Shown: one piece after another, positions 41,373 to 50,495 of the stretch
Position numbering within the stretch: the first letter of the stretch is position 1
Layout of the letters: each line of letters opens with the position of its first letter
NCBI RefSeq assembly: GCF_035961655.1
Contig: NZ_CP108393.1
Coordinates: 6,898,501-6,962,500, forward strand
Origin: Streptomyces sp. NBC_01317
GTDB taxonomy: Bacteria > Actinomycetota > Actinomycetes > Streptomycetales > Streptomycetaceae
DNA length: 64,000 bases
Direction: 5' to 3'
Program-made: the position numbers and the translations under genes
Notes under the pieces: generated by a model
What the model saw: only the letters and a program-made list of their open reading frames with translations
What the model was told of the DNA's origin: nothing
Databases searched by the model: none

Positions 41373-42917
41373 GTGACTTCGCCTGCCTCGCCGGAATTCG
41401 TTCCGCCCCAGCTCAGCGCGGGGCCGCGGCCCGCACAGGGCCCGGCCGCCGACGAAGGGCTGGCGCGGCGGCTGCGCGCGCTCGCGTGCACGGCGCCCCT
41501 GCACGATCTGGACACGCGTAAGGCCAACCTCGCGGGGGAGTACTCGATATACGCGATGGCCGAGGTCGCGCTCTCCGCGATCGATCTGGTCACGCTGAAC
41601 ATGGACTTCGACACCGGCGCCGACCACGAGCAGATCGTGGCGAGGCTGCTGCCGCGCGTCGCCGCGCAGGCCCCGCGCCGCCCGGCCGCCGAGCACGAGC
41701 GGGTCGCCCGGTGGGTGCTGGAGAACCTGATCAACGTCGGCAGCGTGGACCGCGGCTTCCGGGCGGTGTACGGGACGTTCGGCACCGACGGCGTCTACAC
41801 CCGCAGGGACTACGACTTCAAGCTCATCGAGGAAGTCCCCGGGCACGGCGGGAGCGTCTACCTCCGTACGACGGACGAAGCGGTCAACGTGCTGGTGGGC
41901 GCCCTGGACACGGACGTCACCAGCGCGCAGATCGCCGCCGAGGTCAAGCTGGAGGTCCTGATCAACCGCGGCCGGCTCGCGGACGCGCAACTCGCCGCCG
42001 AGCAGGCGAGGTACCGCACGGTGCAGTACGCGGAGACGCTGCGGCGGACGCTGGAGGCGACGCGGCGCAACGTCCGCGCGGTCGACTGGCTGAACGCCGT
42101 GCCGGACATGATCGACGAAGCGCTCGACCATGTCGCCGACCGGTACCGCCACGAGAACGCGATCCTCACGAACATCCGCAAGGCCCGCGACGAGGCCGAG
42201 ACGGGCAACGACCCCAAGACGGCCGAGCACAAGCGGCGCGCCGCCGAGCTGGTCGACATCGTCAAGGACTGCATCCGCCGGCACACCCAGCTCCAGTCCC
42301 GGCTGCTGGAGGCCGGACCGCTGTTCCGGGCGGAGCAGGACCGCCAGGCGTTCGCGGGCCCGTCGGGGCGGACGGGCCTCGATCTCTACGGCCAGCTGGT
42401 CGCCCCGCTGCTGCCGTTGCCGGTGGAGCGGGCGACGCGCGTGACGGACGCGTTCTTCGCCCGGGGCACCGGACTGCGCACGCCGGTGTCCGTCCGGGTC
42501 GGCGACCTGATCGACCTCCTGCTGACGCCCCCGGTCGAGCGCGACCACCTCGGCGCGGAGATGCCGGAGCCCGACCTCATCGCGACGCCGGACGACAGCC
42601 GGTTCAGCGAGGAGCAGCTGGCGAGCGCGATGGAACTGCTCACGCTGGAACCCGACGCCCCCCGCCGCCTCTCGGGCCTCCTCGCCGAGGCCCGCCTCCG
42701 CGACCCCGAACTGCCCTACCTGGTCATCCTCCTGGCCATCCACGCGGCCAGCCCACCCGTGGGCACGGCCTACCGCCAGGGCGAGGAGCGCCTCCTGTTC
42801 GCCGTGGACGACGGCACCCCCCTCCACGACCAGGAGTTCGGCGGCGCCGACCTGATAGTGGGCACGGCACTCCTGGACGCGGCAGGCATGACGGCGTCCC
42901 GCACGGAGGCGGCGTGA
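41373..42917 (+). CDS. Kleisin-like subunit (MukF/JetA-type) of an SMC-like complex, predicted
   Basis: A 514-residue soluble, mainly helical protein. An N-terminal helical/winged-helix-like region (about 25-130, with GEYSIYAMAEVALSAIDLV) is followed by long helices in the middle (about 190-310: DAQLAAEQARYRTVQYAETL, HENAILTNIRKARDEAETG, HKRRAAELVDIVKDCIRRHT) and a second compact domain to the C-terminus. This layout, and its place before a small MukE-like gene and a giant SMC-like ATPase, suggests the bridging kleisin subunit that links ATPase heads. I do not recognise the family by sequence alone; structure-based search would decide. The GTG start appears leaderless. Confidence 0.55.
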   Translation: MTSPASPEFVPPQLSAGPRPAQGPAADEGLARRLRALACTAPLHDLDTRKANLAGEYSIYAMAEVALSAIDLVTLNMDFDTGADHEQIVARLLPRVAAQAPRRPAAEHERVARWVLENLINVGSVDRGFRAVYGTFGTDGVYTRRDYDFKLIEEVPGHGGSVYLRTTDEAVNVLVGALDTDVTSAQIAAEVKLEVLINRGRLADAQLAAEQARYRTVQYAETLRRTLEATRRNVRAVDWLNAVPDMIDEALDHVADRYRHENAILTNIRKARDEAETGNDPKTAEHKRRAAELVDIVKDCIRRHTQLQSRLLEAGPLFRAEQDRQAFAGPSGRTGLDLYGQLVAPLLPLPVERATRVTDAFFARGTGLRTPVSVRVGDLIDLLLTPPVERDHLGAEMPEPDLIATPDDSRFSEEQLASAMELLTLEPDAPRRLSGLLAEARLRDPELPYLVILLAIHAASPPVGTAYRQGEERLLFAVDDGTPLHDQEFGGADLIVGTALLDAAGMTASRTEAA

Positions 42918-43233
42918 ACGCCACGACACCGCGTCCGGCGGACCCGCTTCGGGCCGCTTACCGTCCGGCGGACGTGCTTCCGCCGGTACGGCTTGTGGCC
43001 GCCGCGTGGCCGGCGCGGGCCCGGGTGCGCCCCGGTGAGCGCACTCCTCGCCGCGGTGGAATGCCGACGTGGCCCCGCCGGGCGAGGGACGGGGCGGATC
43101 GGAGCCGTACAAGAAAGAAGGCAGTAGGAGCGGCAGGACCGGGGCCCCGATCCCCATGGCGCGGTGGCCGTGCCTGGCCGGGGCGCCGGGTCGTTCTCGT
43201 CACAGCCACCCCCCACCGCAAGGAGCAGTCCCC
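42918..43233 (+). other. 316-bp gap with short direct repeats and a hairpin
   Basis: No gene is seen. Two copies of a 30-bp-spaced unit starting CGTCCGGCGGAC lie at 42932 and 42962. The second forms a perfect 8-bp hairpin (CCGGCGGA/TCCGCCGG, 42965-42986) that could attenuate transcription between the first and second genes of the SMC-like operon. AAGGAG for the next gene is at 43220-43225. Confidence 0.5.
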
Positions 43234-44145
43234 GTGAGCGACCACCACGCCGAGCACTCCGGCGCGTGGGGCGAGCCCGCCGTCGTGGAGACGGCCGAGC
43301 GCGCCGTCCCGGCGGCGAGCGGCGCGGTCACCCCCGCCGACGCGGCCGACGCCGCCCGGCTCGTCTCCTTCGGCCTCCAGCCCAAGCTGCTCCCCGCCCG
43401 CGACGCGGAATACACCGAACTGCTGCGCCGCTACCGCGAGGACACCGCCTTCGCCCGGATCGCCGACGCCGTCGCCACCGGCTTCGGCCTCGTCGTCCTG
43501 GAGGTCTCCCCCCGCGCCGGCATGGCCGTCACCGCCGCCGAGGACTCCGTCTTCGCCGTCCGGATGGGCGACTACGCGCGCCGCGCCGCCACCGACTCGG
43601 CCGACCGCTTCCTGCACGGCCTCGCCCATCTGGCCGTCGCCGCCATGTCGTTCCCCCGGCCCGAGGACCTCGCCGACGACGGCTACATCGGCCGGATCAC
43701 GGTCAACGGGGTCGACGGGTTCGTCCGCCAGGCCTGCCGGCGACTGGAGGAGCGCGCCGAGGAGGACGGCGAGAACACCGACCCGTCCACGGACGCCCCC
43801 GGCCTCGAAGTCGCCTGGCGGATCTACTCACGGCGCAGCGCCACCGGCGCCACGAAGGACGCGCGGCGGCTCGCCGGTTCCACCACCGGCATCGTCGGCA
43901 AGGCCGTCGCCTTCCTCACCGAGTCCGGCTTCCTCCAGCGCACCGGCGACGACGCCGGAGGCGCGTACCGGACCACCGCCCGCTACCAGCTCCAGGTACG
44001 GGACATGGCCGGCCACGCCGCCATGACGGAGCTGCTGGAGCTGGGCATCGTCCCGGTCACCGACGGCTCCGCCACCCTGCTGCCGCCACGCGACGGCGAC
44101 GACCTCGACCTGGTCGCCGACGCGGGACTGCCCTTCCACTCCTGA
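43234..44145 (+). CDS. MukE/JetB-like subunit of an SMC-like complex, predicted
   Basis: A 303-residue protein with an Ala-rich start, a winged-helix-like central part (about 55-170: YTELLRRYREDTAFARIADA, RFLHGLAHLAVAAMSFPRPE) and a second winged-helix-like part (about 220-280: GIVGKAVAFLTESGFLQRTG, GAYRTTARYQLQVRDM). Small double-winged-helix proteins that bind the kleisin are typical of MukE, MksE and JetB; the assignment rests on gene order and architecture. GTG at 43234 is chosen for its AAGGAG ribosome site. The ATPase gene follows after 96 nt. Confidence 0.55.
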   Translation: MSDHHAEHSGAWGEPAVVETAERAVPAASGAVTPADAADAARLVSFGLQPKLLPARDAEYTELLRRYREDTAFARIADAVATGFGLVVLEVSPRAGMAVTAAEDSVFAVRMGDYARRAATDSADRFLHGLAHLAVAAMSFPRPEDLADDGYIGRITVNGVDGFVRQACRRLEERAEEDGENTDPSTDAPGLEVAWRIYSRRSATGATKDARRLAGSTTGIVGKAVAFLTESGFLQRTGDDAGGAYRTTARYQLQVRDMAGHAAMTELLELGIVPVTDGSATLLPPRDGDDLDLVADAGLPFHS

Positions 44146-44241
44146 TCGGCGCCTCGCCGGCCCGTCACCCGCCCCCCGTCACCCGCCCCCCGTCACCCGC
44201 CCCCCACACCCGCACCGTTCACCAGACGAGAGTCCGCCGCC

Positions 44242-47200
44242 ATGTACGAGCTGTCCCGGGTCCGCCTCTACTCCATCGGCCCCGCCGGTGCGCGCTACGC
44301 CGACACCGTGCTCGACCTGCGCGGAGTGGGCGCGCCCGTGCCGCACCCCGCCCCCGCGCAGGCGGAGTTCTTCGAGGAGGAACCCGTCGGGCCGCCGCGC
44401 CGGCCCGCCCCCGCCGGCGTGCTCTTCCTGGAGAACGGCGGCGGCAAGTCCGTCCTGCTCAAGCTGATCTTCTCGGTGATGCTGCCGGGACACCGCAACA
44501 CACTCGGCGGCGCCAGCTCCGGCGTTCTGCGCAAGTTCCTCCTCGCCGACGACTGCGGCCATGTCGCCCTGGAGTGGCAGCACGTCCTCACCGGCGAACT
44601 CGTCGTGGTCGGCAAGGCCAGTGAGTGGCGCGGGCGCCAGGTGTCCAACGACCCGCGGAAGTTCACCGAGGGCTGGTACTCCTTCCGGCCCGGCCCCGGG
44701 CTCAGCCTCGACTCCCTGCCCGTCGCCGAGGCCACCTCCGTCCGGCCGCCCTCCGAGGGCGCCTCGGGCGCGCGCGGCCGGCGCCGCACGATGAAGGGCT
44801 TCCGGGACGCGCTCACCGAGGCCGGCAAGTTCTACCCCCACCTCGACGTCCACTGGGAAGAGATCCACGACCGCTGGAACGAACACCTCGGGGACCTCGG
44901 CCTCGACCCCGAACTGTTCCGCTACCAGCGGGAGATGAACGCCGACGAGGGCGAGGCCGCCGGCCTCTTCGCCGTCAAGAAGGACTCCGACTTCACCGAC
45001 CTCCTGCTGCGCGCCGTCACCGACACCCGCGACACGGACGGCCTCGCCGACCTGGTCGGCGGCTTCGGCAACAAGCTGGGCCGCCGCGCCGAGCTGACCG
45101 CGGAGCGCGACTTCACCGCGGGATCGGTCGATCTGCTCGGCCGTATCGTCGAGACCACCGGGACCCGCGCGCGGGCCCGTGACATCCATGCGGCCGCCGA
45201 GCGCCGGGCCCGTACGCTCGTACGGCGGATCGCCGCCCGCGCGGCCGAGGAGCGCGGCCGGGCCGCCGAGCTGGCCCAGCGGGTCACCGCCGCCGCGCAC
45301 ACCGTGACCGGGGCCGAGCAGGCGCGGGGCCGCAGCGCGCTCATCGCCGCCGAACTGGCCTACCGGCACGCCTCCCTGGCCCTCGCCGTCGCCGAGAAGC
45401 GCGCCGCCGCGCAGCGCCGTGAACTCACCGAGGCCCGTACGCTCCACTCCGCCTGGCAGGCCGCCGAGGCCGTCCTGCGGCACCGCGCCGCCGCCGACCG
45501 CGCGGCCCGCGTCGCCGTCGCGATCCGCGAGGCCGAGCGGGACGCGGCCCCCGCGCTGGCCGCGCGCGCCACGGCGGCGGGTGATCTCGTCCGCGCGCTG
45601 CACGCCGCCGCCGAGGACGGCGAACGGCTCGCGAACGAGGAGGAGGAGCGCTCCGCCGTCCTCCAGGAGACCGGCGAGGCCGCCCACCGCGACGCGACCT
45701 CCGCCGCGACCGAGGCGCAGCGCGCCCGCAGCGAGATCGGCCATCTGCGGCAGCGACTGGGCGAGGTGGAGCAGGAGACGACCGAGGCGGTACGGGCCGG
45801 CTGGCTCGACAACTCCGCACCGGACGCGGACCCGGCGCGCGCGGCGCTCGCCGCGACGGACGCCGAGAAGGCGGCGGTGGCGGCCTGGGACGGCGCCCGC
45901 GAGGCGGCCCGTACGGCCGCGGAGCGCGCCAGGGAGGCGGCGGCGGAGGAGTCCCGCGCCGAACTGACGGCGGCCCGCGCCGCCGACGCGGCCTTGGCCG
46001 CCGAGCACGCGTACGACGCGGAGCACCGCGCGGCCGAGTCCCTCGCCCAGGACGAACGCCTGGCGGAACTGCTCAGCCTCCCCCCGACCCCCCAACCCGG
46101 AGTCCCGGCGCCCCGCACGGCCCAGCCCCCACCCCGCACGAGCGCCGCCACCCATGAACGCGCGTCCCGTGCCACAAGGGTCACCGCGAAGGTCCCGCTG
46201 GGGGAGCCCACCCAAGAGAGGGCACAAGGCAGGGCCGTTCCTCCGGGCGTTGGTGCCACTTCATCGATCCCGGGCGGAGCCCGGGACGGTTCGTCGGGCA
46301 CGGCGCCCGCCGGGGACGCCCGCACGGGCAGGGAACCGTTCGGTGCCTCCGGCGAGGCCGTTTCGCCGGGCCGGGGCGGTGCTTCGGCGGTGCCCGGCGG
46401 GGACGGCTCGGCGGGTACGCCGACGAGCGAGAGCGACCGGTCGGGCGACCGCCTGAACAGGGCCTCGGGCGAGCCCGGCCCAGCGGCCCAGGACCGCTCT
46501 TCGACGACGGCCGGGGAAGCCCGGGGCGGTTCGTCGGGTACGGCGTCCGCCGCGGACGCCTGGTCGGGTGACCGGCCGTTCGGGGCCTCTGGCGTTGCCG
46601 GTCCGGAAGGTCAGGGCCGCACTTCGGCCGCGCCCGGCGCAGGCTCGGGTGGTTCGCCGGGTACGGGGCCCGGTCCGAGCCACTGGTCCGGCGGCGGAGC
46701 GGGCAGTGCCCCCGGCGGCGCCGGACATGCGGGCCAGGGCCATCCCGCAACGAACTCCGCCGCAGGCCGCGGCGGTTCCGGTGAGAACGGGGCGGCGTCC
46801 GGTCCCGCCGGGGCGGCCTTGGACCGAGGCCCGCTCAGCGGCCAGGAGGGCGACCCGGGTGGCACCGCCACCGGCTCGCGCGACGTCCGTCGGACCGACG
46901 AGGTGACCGCTGGCGCCGCCGGCGCGTCCGGTACGGCGTCCGGCGGCCGACGTCGTGAGGGTCACGACGACCTCATGGGCGCTCCCGCGGCCATGTCCGC
47001 CGGCGCCGACGCGTCCAGCGCCACGGCTCCGGTCAGCGCCGGTGACCCCCAAGGCCCCTCGGCCGACGCAGACGACCCCGCCGGCCACGACGGCGGTCAC
47101 CCGGCCCCCGCCCACCGCAGGCGTTCCGCCCCCCGACGCGCGTCCGACGCGCCCCTCACCCCCGCCGAGTTGGACCGGTTCGCCGACGAACTGCGCGAGC

Positions 47201-49929
47201 TGCTCGACCAGGGCATCGCCGCCGCCGAGCGGCAGCTGTTCGATCTGCGGACCGTCGCCGCCGACGACTCCCGGATCCTCGGCGCGCTCGGTGACGGCGG
47301 GTTGCTGCCGCCCGGGCCCGACGTGCTGGCCACCGTCGAGTACCTGGGCGAGCACGGCATCCCCGCCCTCCCCGGCTGGCGTTACCTCGCCCAGGCCGTC
47401 GACCCCGGCGACCACGCCGCCGTCCTCGCCGCCCGGCCCGAGCTGGTCGACGGCGTCGTGATCACCGACCCCGCCTCGCACGCCCGCGCCCGCGACGTCC
47501 TCGCCGGTGCCGCCCTGCTGCCCCGCTCCGCCGTCGCCGTCGGGACGGCCGCCGCGCTGCTCGCGCCCGTCCCCGGCCCCGGCGCGGCCGGCCTGGACGA
47601 GGGCGGCGTGTTCCTCGTACCGCCGAACCCCGCCATGCACGACGAACACGCCGCCGACGAAGAGCGCCAGGCCCTCCGCGCCCGTGCCACCGTCCGCGAC
47701 GAGGACATCAAGCAGCTCGCCGCACGCCTGGCCGGCGACCGATCCCTGGCCGCCCGCCTCGGCTCCTGGCGCGCCGACTGCCCGCCCGGCATGCTCACCG
47801 AACTCGCCGAGGCGGCCGAGACCGCCCGGCGGACCGCCGTGACGGCCGAGGCCGCGCTCGCCGAAGCCCGTACGGTACGGGCCGAGGCGGACGAGGCCGC
47901 CGCCGACACCGCCCGCGTCCGCGAGGAACGGCAGGAGACCGCCCAGCGCGCCCGCCGCGTCGCCGACGCCCTCGCCGGCCTCGCCTTCCGCCTCCGCGAA
48001 CGCGCCGCCTGGCAGGCGAAACTCCGCGAACTGGCCGACGACGCCGCCGAGTCCGAGGCCAGGGCCGCCGCCTGTCTGGAACGGGCCCGCGCCTCGGACG
48101 AGGACCGCAGAGCCGCCCAGCGCGCCGCCGACGACGCCCGCCGCACCGCCCGCGCCCTGCGCGCCGAACGCGCCGAGATCGCCGGCGCGCCCGAAACCCT
48201 CCCGGAGCCGGCCCCCGACGCCCCCCGCATCGCCCTGCCCGCCCTGCGCGAGGCCTACCGCGCCGCCTCCCAGCTGTACGAGAAGGTCGGCGTCGGCGCC
48301 GACCTCCGCGCCGAACAGTCCCGCGCCGAGAGCGACGAGAGCGCCGCCGTGACCGAGTTGGACCGGCTCAGCAACAAGGTCCGCACCCGCGCCGCCCAAC
48401 TCCTCGAATCCACCGACGGTGCCGACGGCCCGTCCCGCCAGGCCGCCGCCGCCCGCGCCGAATCACTCGTCCAGATGCTGGAGACCCGCGCCACCACCGC
48501 CAGCGAGCAACTCGGCCGCCTGCGCGGCGAGGCCGAACGCCTCGCCCCGGCCGACGGCGAGGGCGACGGCGGCGCGCACACCGAACTGCCCGAGGACCTC
48601 GTCCCCGCCGACGTCGAGCAGGCGCAGAGCATGCTCCGTACGGCCACCACCGAACGGGCCCTGCGCACCGACGCGCTGGACACCGCCCGCGCCGCCCACG
48701 GCGAGCTGCTCCACTCCCACCGCGCGGCCGAGGACGCGGCGGGCGGCTTCGACGAGACGAGCGCCCTCCTGCGCGACCTGCTGCGCGGCGCGGTCGCCGA
48801 CGACACCGCCGCCGACGAGACGGCCGAGCCTCCGGAGCCGTACCCCGGCGGCCTGGAGGACGCCAGGCAGGCCGCCGCCGAGGCCCGCCGGTCCCTGCGC
48901 GGATGCGCCCAGGACCTCTCCACGGCGGACGCCGCCCTGCGGGAGACCTGCGACGTGCTCGTACGGCACGCCAACTCCACCCGCTACGAGCAGGTCCGGA
49001 CCCCGGCCCGCCAGCAGATCAGGGAGCTGCCCGCGTCCGCCCTGCCGGAACACGCCGAACGCTGGGCGGCGGCCTTCGCCCCCCGGCTCCGCGTCCTGAC
49101 GGACGAGCTGGCGCAGCTGGAGCGCAACCGCGAGTCCATCGTCGACCGGCTGCGCGGCCTGGTCGAGTCCGCCCTGACCACCCTCCGGTCCGCCCAGCGG
49201 CTGTCCCGGCTGCCGGAGGGCCTGGGGGAGTGGTCCGGGCAGGAGTTCCTGCGGATCCGCTTCGAGGAGCCGGACCGTACGACCCTCACCGAGCGGCTCG
49301 GCGAGGTCGTCGACGAGGCGACCCGCGCCGCCCTCAAGAAGAACGCCGACCTCCGCAGGGACGGCATGTCCCTTCTCCTGCGCGGTGTTCAGGCGGCGCT
49401 CCAGCCCAAGGGCATCGCCGTCGAGATCCTCAAGCCGGACGCCGTGCTGCGCGCCGAGCGCGTCCCCGTCGGGCAGATGGGCGACGTCTTCTCCGGCGGC
49501 CAGCTGCTCACCGCGGCGATCGCCCTCTACTGCACGATGGCGGCGCTGCGCAGCAACGACCGGGGCCGTGACAAGCACCGCCACGCGGGGACGCTCTTCC
49601 TCGACAATCCGATCGGCCGCGCCAACGCCACGTATCTGCTGGAGCTCCAGCGCGCGGTGTCGGACGCCCTCGGCGTGCAACTCCTCTACACCACGGGCCT
49701 CTTCGACACGACGGCGCTCGCCGAGTTCCCCCTCGTCATCCGCTTGCGCAACGACGCGGACCTGCGCGCCGGGCTGAAGTACATCAGCGTGGAGGAACAC
49801 CTGCGCCCCGGTCTGCCCAAGCAGGACCTTGACGGCGAGGTCGTCCACGGTGAGATCACCGCGACCCGCATGTTCAAACGGAGTCAGGACGCCATCGCCA
49901 CCGAGGGAGCGGACGCCACCCAGCAGTAG
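44242..49929 (+). CDS. Giant SMC-like (MukB/JetC-type) ATPase
   Basis: A 1895-residue protein with SMC layout: N-terminal head with Walker A-like LENGGGKS (63-70; the usual first glycine is leucine), coiled coil about 300-613, a low-complexity insert about 614-973, a presumed hinge about 1015-1120 (LLPPGPDVLATVEYLGEHGI), second coiled coil about 1140-1600, and C-terminal head with the signature FSGGQLL (1750) and Walker B TLFLDNPIG, where Asp1788 is followed by Asn instead of the catalytic Glu. Without the insert it would be about 1535 residues, close to MukB. It probably clamps DNA with the two preceding subunits. No JetD/MksG-type nuclease gene follows. Confidence 0.8.
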   Translation: MYELSRVRLYSIGPAGARYADTVLDLRGVGAPVPHPAPAQAEFFEEEPVGPPRRPAPAGVLFLENGGGKSVLLKLIFSVMLPGHRNTLGGASSGVLRKFLLADDCGHVALEWQHVLTGELVVVGKASEWRGRQVSNDPRKFTEGWYSFRPGPGLSLDSLPVAEATSVRPPSEGASGARGRRRTMKGFRDALTEAGKFYPHLDVHWEEIHDRWNEHLGDLGLDPELFRYQREMNADEGEAAGLFAVKKDSDFTDLLLRAVTDTRDTDGLADLVGGFGNKLGRRAELTAERDFTAGSVDLLGRIVETTGTRARARDIHAAAERRARTLVRRIAARAAEERGRAAELAQRVTAAAHTVTGAEQARGRSALIAAELAYRHASLALAVAEKRAAAQRRELTEARTLHSAWQAAEAVLRHRAAADRAARVAVAIREAERDAAPALAARATAAGDLVRALHAAAEDGERLANEEEERSAVLQETGEAAHRDATSAATEAQRARSEIGHLRQRLGEVEQETTEAVRAGWLDNSAPDADPARAALAATDAEKAAVAAWDGAREAARTAAERAREAAAEESRAELTAARAADAALAAEHAYDAEHRAAESLAQDERLAELLSLPPTPQPGVPAPRTAQPPPRTSAATHERASRATRVTAKVPLGEPTQERAQGRAVPPGVGATSSIPGGARDGSSGTAPAGDARTGREPFGASGEAVSPGRGGASAVPGGDGSAGTPTSESDRSGDRLNRASGEPGPAAQDRSSTTAGEARGGSSGTASAADAWSGDRPFGASGVAGPEGQGRTSAAPGAGSGGSPGTGPGPSHWSGGGAGSAPGGAGHAGQGHPATNSAAGRGGSGENGAASGPAGAALDRGPLSGQEGDPGGTATGSRDVRRTDEVTAGAAGASGTASGGRRREGHDDLMGAPAAMSAGADASSATAPVSAGDPQGPSADADDPAGHDGGHPAPAHRRRSAPRRASDAPLTPAELDRFADELRELLDQGIAAAERQLFDLRTVAADDSRILGALGDGGLLPPGPDVLATVEYLGEHGIPALPGWRYLAQAVDPGDHAAVLAARPELVDGVVITDPASHARARDVLAGAALLPRSAVAVGTAAALLAPVPGPGAAGLDEGGVFLVPPNPAMHDEHAADEERQALRARATVRDEDIKQLAARLAGDRSLAARLGSWRADCPPGMLTELAEAAETARRTAVTAEAALAEARTVRAEADEAAADTARVREERQETAQRARRVADALAGLAFRLRERAAWQAKLRELADDAAESEARAAACLERARASDEDRRAAQRAADDARRTARALRAERAEIAGAPETLPEPAPDAPRIALPALREAYRAASQLYEKVGVGADLRAEQSRAESDESAAVTELDRLSNKVRTRAAQLLESTDGADGPSRQAAAARAESLVQMLETRATTASEQLGRLRGEAERLAPADGEGDGGAHTELPEDLVPADVEQAQSMLRTATTERALRTDALDTARAAHGELLHSHRAAEDAAGGFDETSALLRDLLRGAVADDTAADETAEPPEPYPGGLEDARQAAAEARRSLRGCAQDLSTADAALRETCDVLVRHANSTRYEQVRTPARQQIRELPASALPEHAERWAAAFAPRLRVLTDELAQLERNRESIVDRLRGLVESALTTLRSAQRLSRLPEGLGEWSGQEFLRIRFEEPDRTTLTERLGEVVDEATRAALKKNADLRRDGMSLLLRGVQAALQPKGIAVEILKPDAVLRAERVPVGQMGDVFSGGQLLTAAIALYCTMAALRSNDRGRDKHRHAGTLFLDNPIGRANATYLLELQRAVSDALGVQLLYTTGLFDTTALAEFPLVIRLRNDADLRAGLKYISVEEHLRPGLPKQDLDGEVVHGEITATRMFKRSQDAIATEGADATQQ
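46288..46900 (+). repeat. In-frame tandem repeats of about 120 bp inside the SMC-like gene
   Basis: Copies that begin like GGTTCGTCGGG(T/C)ACGGCG start at about 46288, 46405, 46528, 46651 and 46774, spaced 117-123 bp, and decay further on. They encode about 40-residue Gly/Ser/Ala-rich units such as SSGTASAADAWSGDRPFGAS. Just upstream (about 46140-46260) codon use is unusual for the genome (ACA, AGG, CAA, TCA, GTT), as if intergenic-type DNA had been inserted in frame. Confidence 0.75.
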
Positions 49930-49961
49930 TGGGCCCTGCCCAGCAGGAGGCCCTCAGGCCC

Positions 49962-50495
49962 TCACGCCCGGCTGAGCCGACTGCCGCCGCGCTCGCGCCC
50001 CCGCTCGCCTCCCAGGCCGTGGCTCCGCTCCGGCGCCCGGTCGGCGCGGGGCGTCCGTATGCGTCCTCCGGCACGCTCCGCGTCCCGCGCCGAACTCCGC
50101 GCGGTACGCCGGGCCCTGCGCCGCTCCCGGCGCAACTGCCGTGCCGTGCTGCTCGGTACGGACACCACGCCGTTGCGTTGGTTCCACACCTGCCGCGTCA
50201 CCCAGACGTCCAGCACCGACCAGGTCGCCACCACCGTCGACGCGACACTGCTGATCACCATCGGGAACGCCAGCCAGGAGGCGCTGAGCGTGCCGAGAAA
50301 CGCAATCATGGCCTGAATCAGCGTCACCGCCGCGATGATCACCGCGCGGACCGCCGCCCTCCTGACCGGATCCGGCATGCGGTACCTGAGCGCGGGCTCC
50401 TCCACCCAGAGCTGCCGCGAGCCTCCCGGGAACCCCTGTGAGACCCCCGAGAAGTCGTCCGCCGGCGCCGCACCCCGCCGCTGATCCGTATCCAT
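49962..50495 (-). CDS. Small membrane protein with basic C-terminus
   Basis: A 177-residue protein with two adjacent membrane helices (about 52-75 and 80-100: AVIIAAVTLIQAMIAFLG and SWLAFPMVISSVASTVVATW) and a strongly Arg-rich C-terminal tail of about 65 residues. Function unknown. ATG at 50495 has GGAG about 11 nt ahead; a GTG 21 nt upstream is an alternative. It is convergent with the SMC-like gene and divergent from the conservon. Confidence 0.6.
   Translation of the reverse strand: MDTDQRRGAAPADDFSGVSQGFPGGSRQLWVEEPALRYRMPDPVRRAAVRAVIIAAVTLIQAMIAFLGTLSASWLAFPMVISSVASTVVATWSVLDVWVTRQVWNQRNGVVSVPSSTARQLRRERRRARRTARSSARDAERAGGRIRTPRADRAPERSHGLGGERGRERGGSRLSRA

Follow-up and report, generated by a model that had tools for sequence, protein, structure and literature searches.

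The stretch of DNA analysed here (the window, 64,000 nucleotides) comes from Streptomyces sp. NBC_01317 and covers positions 6,898,501-6,962,500 of the forward strand of contig NZ_CP108393.1 (assembly GCF_035961655.1). It encodes a kleisin, a KITE (kleisin-interacting tandem winged-helix element) protein and an ATPase of the structural maintenance of chromosomes (SMC) type, whose genes jetA, jetB and jetC lie on one strand in the order A-B-C. The locus specifies a variant of JetABC that lacks the nuclease, with the following features in window coordinates:

41373..42917, + strand: jetA, kleisin, JetA3/MukF-like, GTG start, 514 aa
42918..43233, no strand: jetA-jetB spacer, 316 bp
43234..44145, + strand: jetB, KITE winged-helix protein, MukE/JetB-like, GTG start, 303 aa, AAGGAG upstream
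44242..49929, + strand: jetC, SMC ATPase, ATG start, 1895 aa; matches PADLOC JetC3 (PDLC00588) at E = 0 with 1391.7 bits
44434..44448, + strand: JetC Walker A core NGGGK, residues 65-69, within LFLENGGGKS (N65-K69)
46042..47166, + strand: JetC low-complexity insert, residues 601-975, about 375 aa, just before the hinge-like region
47167..47721, + strand: JetC hinge-like region, residues 976-1160, assigned from its position without a fold test
49492..49503, + strand: JetC ATP-binding cassette (ABC) signature SGGQ, residues 1751-1754
49600..49611, + strand: JetC Walker B LDNP, residues 1787-1790, within LFLDNP

JetA and JetC match the PADLOC profiles of type III Wadjet, JetA3 at E = 1.2e-183 and JetC3 at E = 0, and a chance match is excluded. 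By these profiles both proteins belong to a known family and not to an unknown one. The P-loop, signature and Walker B that a preliminary description of this DNA had seen in the giant ATPase are present as NGGGK, SGGQ and LDNP. JetB has no convincing sequence-family match; the JetB3 profiles are silent on it, and they also miss three of four JetBs from JetD-bearing sets, the fourth being found at E = 0.011. The same preliminary description had called the first two proteins kleisin-like and MukE-like, had proposed an SMC/kleisin/KITE trio of the MukBEF or JetABC kind, and had suggested to check it by structure. In the structure searches, which used modest models, the predicted fold of JetA was matched by MukF in the seven best VIA rows, and that of JetB had MukE as the top match in one search and JetB/MukE in another, so that a kleisin-like fold was recovered for JetA and a KITE-like one for JetB. 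Together with the gene position, the predicted fold identifies the window JetB as a KITE subunit of the Wadjet type III kind. None of the three proteins matched the curated MukB, MukE or MukF families of Pfam or NCBIfam at E<=1, JetC matched no NCBIfam model at E<=1, including the SMC profile TIGR02168, and sequence searches of the PDB with JetC alone and with JetC, JetB and JetA alignments had no SMC, KITE or kleisin among their rows.

JetD, the nuclease subunit that defines Wadjet, is absent beside the window jetABC, as had been noted from the sequence, and it occurs in none of the 50 Streptomycetaceae core loci (48 of Streptomyces, Kitasatospora L152 and Yinghuangia L173), 49 of which extend at least 3.3 kb past jetC and one, L184, only 0.7 kb. 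A JetD-type gene adjacent to the locus in close relatives, the finding that the preliminary description had named as speaking against its proposal, was thus looked for at these 50 loci and seen at none. The scan used a JetD profile built in this analysis and covered 126 stretches (the window, L062-L091 and L112-L206), some of which are repeats of one contig and two of which, L082 and L205, yielded no jetABC. A strong JetD, at E = 6e-95 or lower, was present in 26 of them, and the others gave no match better than 1.7e-4; weak matches at loci without a strong one (E 1.7e-4 to 0.03) were taken as chance or as frame shadows of jetC. L081 and L083 end before the position of jetD, so that their JetD state is not readable, and they are counted among the rows without a strong JetD. 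The genome-wide search for Toprim JetD-type proteins that had been proposed gave no match in the own genome for JetD_C (PF09983), JetD3 (PDLC00594) or DUF3322 (PF11795), and for DUF2399 (PF09664) nothing but a broken copy at a distance of 4.9 Mb, in three pieces in different frames at 2.0474-2.0479 Mb. By these four JetD-type models, the genome contains no intact JetD. As the defining JetD was searched for and not found, the locus ought not to be classed with the Wadjet defence systems. The idea that the JetC insert might be a hidden nuclease was rejected: the insert is of low complexity and variable length, evolves at a ratio of nonsynonymous to synonymous polymorphism (pN/pS) of about 0.8, and has no Pfam match. 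The broken JetD-like DUF2399 gene, split over frames at G000:C1:2047415-2047859 (L082:9416-9860) and outside the window, is a broken defence gene; it is flanked by a major facilitator superfamily (MFS) transporter gene and by a kinase / DISARM DrmD-like / PglX-like cluster, the NCBIfam matches around it all being under the curated cut-offs.

JetABC is a family-wide core locus of the Streptomycetaceae and is mostly syntenic there. Of 199 genomes of the genus, 193 have a JetA match, as do 148 of the 150 genomes drawn from the family; all 17 genera of the family draw have one, that of G590 being weak (E = 1e-18). A patchy distribution, which is typical of defence systems without strictly defining them, is not seen here: among genomes of good quality, the match is present in 192 of 194 for the genus, in G121 with no better than E = 1e-64, and in 144 of 145 for the family. 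Since JetA is near-universal in genus and family and JetD occurs at none of the 50 core loci, the absence of JetD is not a recent loss. Among the 50 core loci of the family, a LamB/YcsF (pxpA-like) or FCD-regulator gene lies upstream in 41, conservon genes lie downstream in 36, and 47 have at least one of the known neighbours. In a class-wide draw, a JetA match was present in 60 of 394 genomes and 6 of 137 genera, which comprise the own genus, Frankiaceae and Pseudonocardiaceae, and nuclease-free copies occur in the latter two families as well. The Pseudonocardiaceae loci have a glyceraldehyde-3-phosphate dehydrogenase (GAPDH) gene downstream in 30 of 36 distinct cases, usually as gap-pgk-tpi, and a thiamine-phosphate-synthase gene is adjacent in 6 of the 10 core loci read from Frankiaceae; no neighbour is common to the loci of all three families. 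JetA relatives are rare on plasmids (4 of 72,556 records, all below 60% identity and the best at 52%). The best of them, 52% identical to the window JetA, is encoded on the Rhodococcus plasmid NZ_CP070616.1:68297-69802.

The genus also has complete JetABCD sets, though with a sporadic distribution. JetD3 model matches were obtained in 28 of the 199 genomes, and in 14 of these they cover at least 270 of the 345 model positions. In the 14 such places that were read (L080 and L192-L204), JetD is accompanied by a separate jetB and jetC, and by jetA where the contig holds it. The core jetA is among the matches listed for 11 of the 14 genomes, in 8 cases on the same contig at a distance of 0.3 Mb or more and in 3 on other contigs, and complete and nuclease-free copies coexist in single Streptomyces genomes.

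Two trees were built, one of JetA with 79 rows and a combined one of JetA and JetC with 69 rows, from which near-copies, truncated and very divergent rows had been removed beforehand; on them the orphan state needs at least five changes, three of them forced by starred branches. The orphans of Streptomycetaceae and Frankiaceae group together in the JetA tree (93) and, weakly (75), in a further tree, while the combined tree leaves their relation open. A single clade of all orphans was rejected by the approximately unbiased (AU) test, with p 1e-46 when L143 and L116 are included and 0.0005 without them, the test carrying a tool warning on long branches. All outer branches of known state carry JetD in these midpoint-rooted trees, which favours a loss of JetD, the midpoint rooting being no proof of it, and we infer that the nuclease was once there and has been lost. 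At the gap-pgk-tpi locus, JetD is found in 2 of 30 distinct loci, those of Tamaricihabitans (L116) and Amycolatopsis rifamycinica (L143), and the other 28 are nuclease-free. In A. rifamycinica, jetD (L143:14520-15494) lies between jetC and a gene that follows jetC directly in close sisters. The JetD proteins of A. rifamycinica and L116 share 36% identity, although their JetAs share 76%; given this difference, an exchange or a later gain of JetD is possible in A. rifamycinica, and vertical retention is not distinguishable from a later gain.

Purifying selection acts strongly on the ATPase heads. In a comparison of 13 Streptomyces copies, the median pN/pS is 0.18 for jetA, 0.25 for jetB and 0.31 for jetC, and within jetC it is 0.14 for the N-terminal and 0.17 for the C-terminal head, 0.32-0.37 for the arms and the hinge-like region, and 0.80 for the insert. 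As six flanking genes span 0.27-0.63 (7-10 copies), the heads and jetA are exceptional, jetB and the whole jetC are not. With repeats removed, Walker A is present in 93 of 94 JetC rows without a strong JetD, the one miss being the divergent row L083, and the signature and Walker B are present in 90 of 94, the misses being cut rows or the split row L075. Motifs and selection together indicate that JetABC is retained as an ATPase. The Walker B position after the Asp is usually the catalytic Glu; here it is an Asn (residue 1789; window 49606-49608), in the orphan and in JetD-bearing type III JetC alike, and a reading of this Asn as orphan decay was rejected on account of that identity. Decay of the whole system, with the locus as a remnant of a defence system, would fit the missing nuclease, a Streptomyces JetA with one in-frame TGA (G087:C29:44817-46337, possibly a pseudogene or a sequencing error) and the Frankiaceae JetC of L075, which is split over two frames. 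Nearly all orphan copies in which the region is present have, however, kept their open reading frames (ORFs) and ATPase motifs, and pN/pS is low in the heads, so that we regard this already disfavoured explanation as very improbable.

Given the family of the proteins, the missing nuclease, the fixation and the selection, we think it somewhat more probable than not that the complex descends from a type III Wadjet which lost the nuclease, and that it now serves as a fixed second condensin, probably one that extrudes loops; it would be a second one because the host also encodes Smc (a TIGR02168 gene over the cut-off at 2.42 Mb) and ScpA (at 6.50 Mb). The preliminary description had left the choice between a chromosome-organising condensin, a relative using another nuclease and a new defence variant; the evidence favours the condensin, without proving it. 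Based on the homology to MukBEF and Wadjet, JetABC would assemble around a JetC dimer whose heads are bridged by JetA, with JetB subunits bound to JetA; head engagement driven by ATP would allow the complex to load on DNA, to clamp it and to extrude or hold loops, with the chromosome as the presumed target. In the available part of PMC10586767, it is proposed that JetD is triggered once Wadjet has extruded a small circle completely (total extrusion model); without JetD, extrusion would not be ended by cleavage, and the motor could act on the chromosome without the risk of cutting it.

The window system resembles Wadjet type III in the profile families of JetA and JetC and in the order A-B-C, and Frankiaceae sets whose JetAs are 54% and 60% identical to that of the window carry JetD3 directly after jetC. 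It differs in lacking JetD, in being fixed in the family and not sporadic, in the separation of jetA from jetB and in the long linker of JetC. Smc-ScpAB is an SMC complex of the same cell, but its genes lie elsewhere, and JetC matches no NCBIfam model at E<=1. MksBEF of Pseudomonas aeruginosa presumably belongs to another branch of Wadjet than the window system. With MukBEF, the trio shares the kleisin, KITE and SMC composition without a nuclease, and its JetA and JetB models are matched by MukF and by MukE/JetB, but it is not a member of the MukBEF sequence families and shares its genome with Smc and ScpA, whereas, in the accessible text of PMC10586767, MukBEF is said to have taken the place of Smc-ScpAB. 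MksBEFG of Corynebacterium glutamicum (type I) is likewise an actinobacterial SMC/kleisin/KITE complex; according to the sections available of PMC10123090, it has the nuclease MksG, acts on plasmids and sits at the cell poles.

The main rival to a second condensin is a nuclease-free control of plasmids, in which JetABC would extrude small circular DNA fully and silence or trap it without cutting, comparable to Smc5/6 on extrachromosomal DNA. The nearest relatives are indeed subunits of the anti-plasmid Wadjet, and the part of PMC10586767 at hand groups Wadjet with Smc5/6 as SMC-based immunity, but a near-universal and mostly syntenic fixation sets JetABC apart from the genus's complete JetABCD sets (JetD3 over most of the model in 14 of 199 genomes), and we consider this control function unlikely, if still worth keeping in mind. 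A split, cutting defence, for which JetABC would recruit another JetD-like or an unrelated Toprim nuclease encoded elsewhere, could draw on the JetD-like genes of other types in the genus, where DUF2399 proteins were found in 42 of 101 genomes and JetD_C in 13 of 101. Such genes are sporadic, however, compared with the near-universal JetABC, the own genome lacks an intact JetD by the four models, and the loci of the three families share no neighbour, which makes this recruitment improbable. SMC-like ATPases often act in repair, and the Walker B of JetC departs from the canonical motif; a RecN/Rad50-like machine of DNA repair or recombination would nevertheless be hard to reconcile with the kleisin and KITE partners, which Rad50 does not have according to the available text of PMC10586767, and we judge it slightly less probable still than a recruited nuclease.

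For a chromosomal second condensin in the Streptomycetaceae, the wider proposition would be that a plasmid-defence SMC complex became a permanent chromosomal condensin at least twice in the Actinomycetes by losing only its nuclease, and that a family with linear chromosomes, multigenomic hyphae and spores has a family-wide second condensin which is unmentioned in the chromosome-biology papers found; we give this an even chance. In literature searches that covered few subscription papers and almost no preprints, no paper on the core JetABC of Streptomyces was found. PMC13121528 treats the condensins of Streptomyces, with no mention of Wadjet in the part available, and PMC10482375 gives Wadjet counts from DefenseFinder, its accessible part holding no terms beginning with Jet. 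If the proposition is true, Smc-ScpAB is accompanied in nearly every Streptomyces by another loop-extruding machine, which has apparently not been studied. A descent of MukBEF and MksBEF from Wadjet by loss of JetD would also become testable in living sister species, because nuclease-bearing and nuclease-free copies share a locus in Pseudonocardiaceae (2 and 28 of 30) and coexist in single Streptomyces genomes. An annotation of defence from JetA and JetC matches alone would label a core housekeeping candidate as a defence system.

Some features of the locus itself remain to be described. The start of JetA is backed by homologues, as the alignments begin at residue 1. JetC is unusually long owing to its insert, the equivalent of which measures 40-501 aa in 12 other Streptomyces copies; the best profile match picks up again at residue 975, and the hinge-like region that follows is 182-188 aa long in 13 copies. 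Most full-length JetCs from JetD-bearing sets have about 1450-1530 aa overall. An ORF at 49929-50441, which overlaps the stop of jetC, was rejected as a fourth gene, being rich in arginine and proline and not selected by the gene caller, and the small ORF on the opposite strand had no Pfam match. The spacing between jetA and jetB, counted with heuristically picked starts, is positive in 45 of 48 Streptomycetaceae rows, and a 4-bp overlap is found in 16 of 25 JetD-bearing rows (one row of the former and two of the latter being repeats). Many orphans of the Pseudonocardiaceae retain the 4-bp overlap. The widened spacing in the Streptomycetaceae suggests a looser co-expression than in defence operons.
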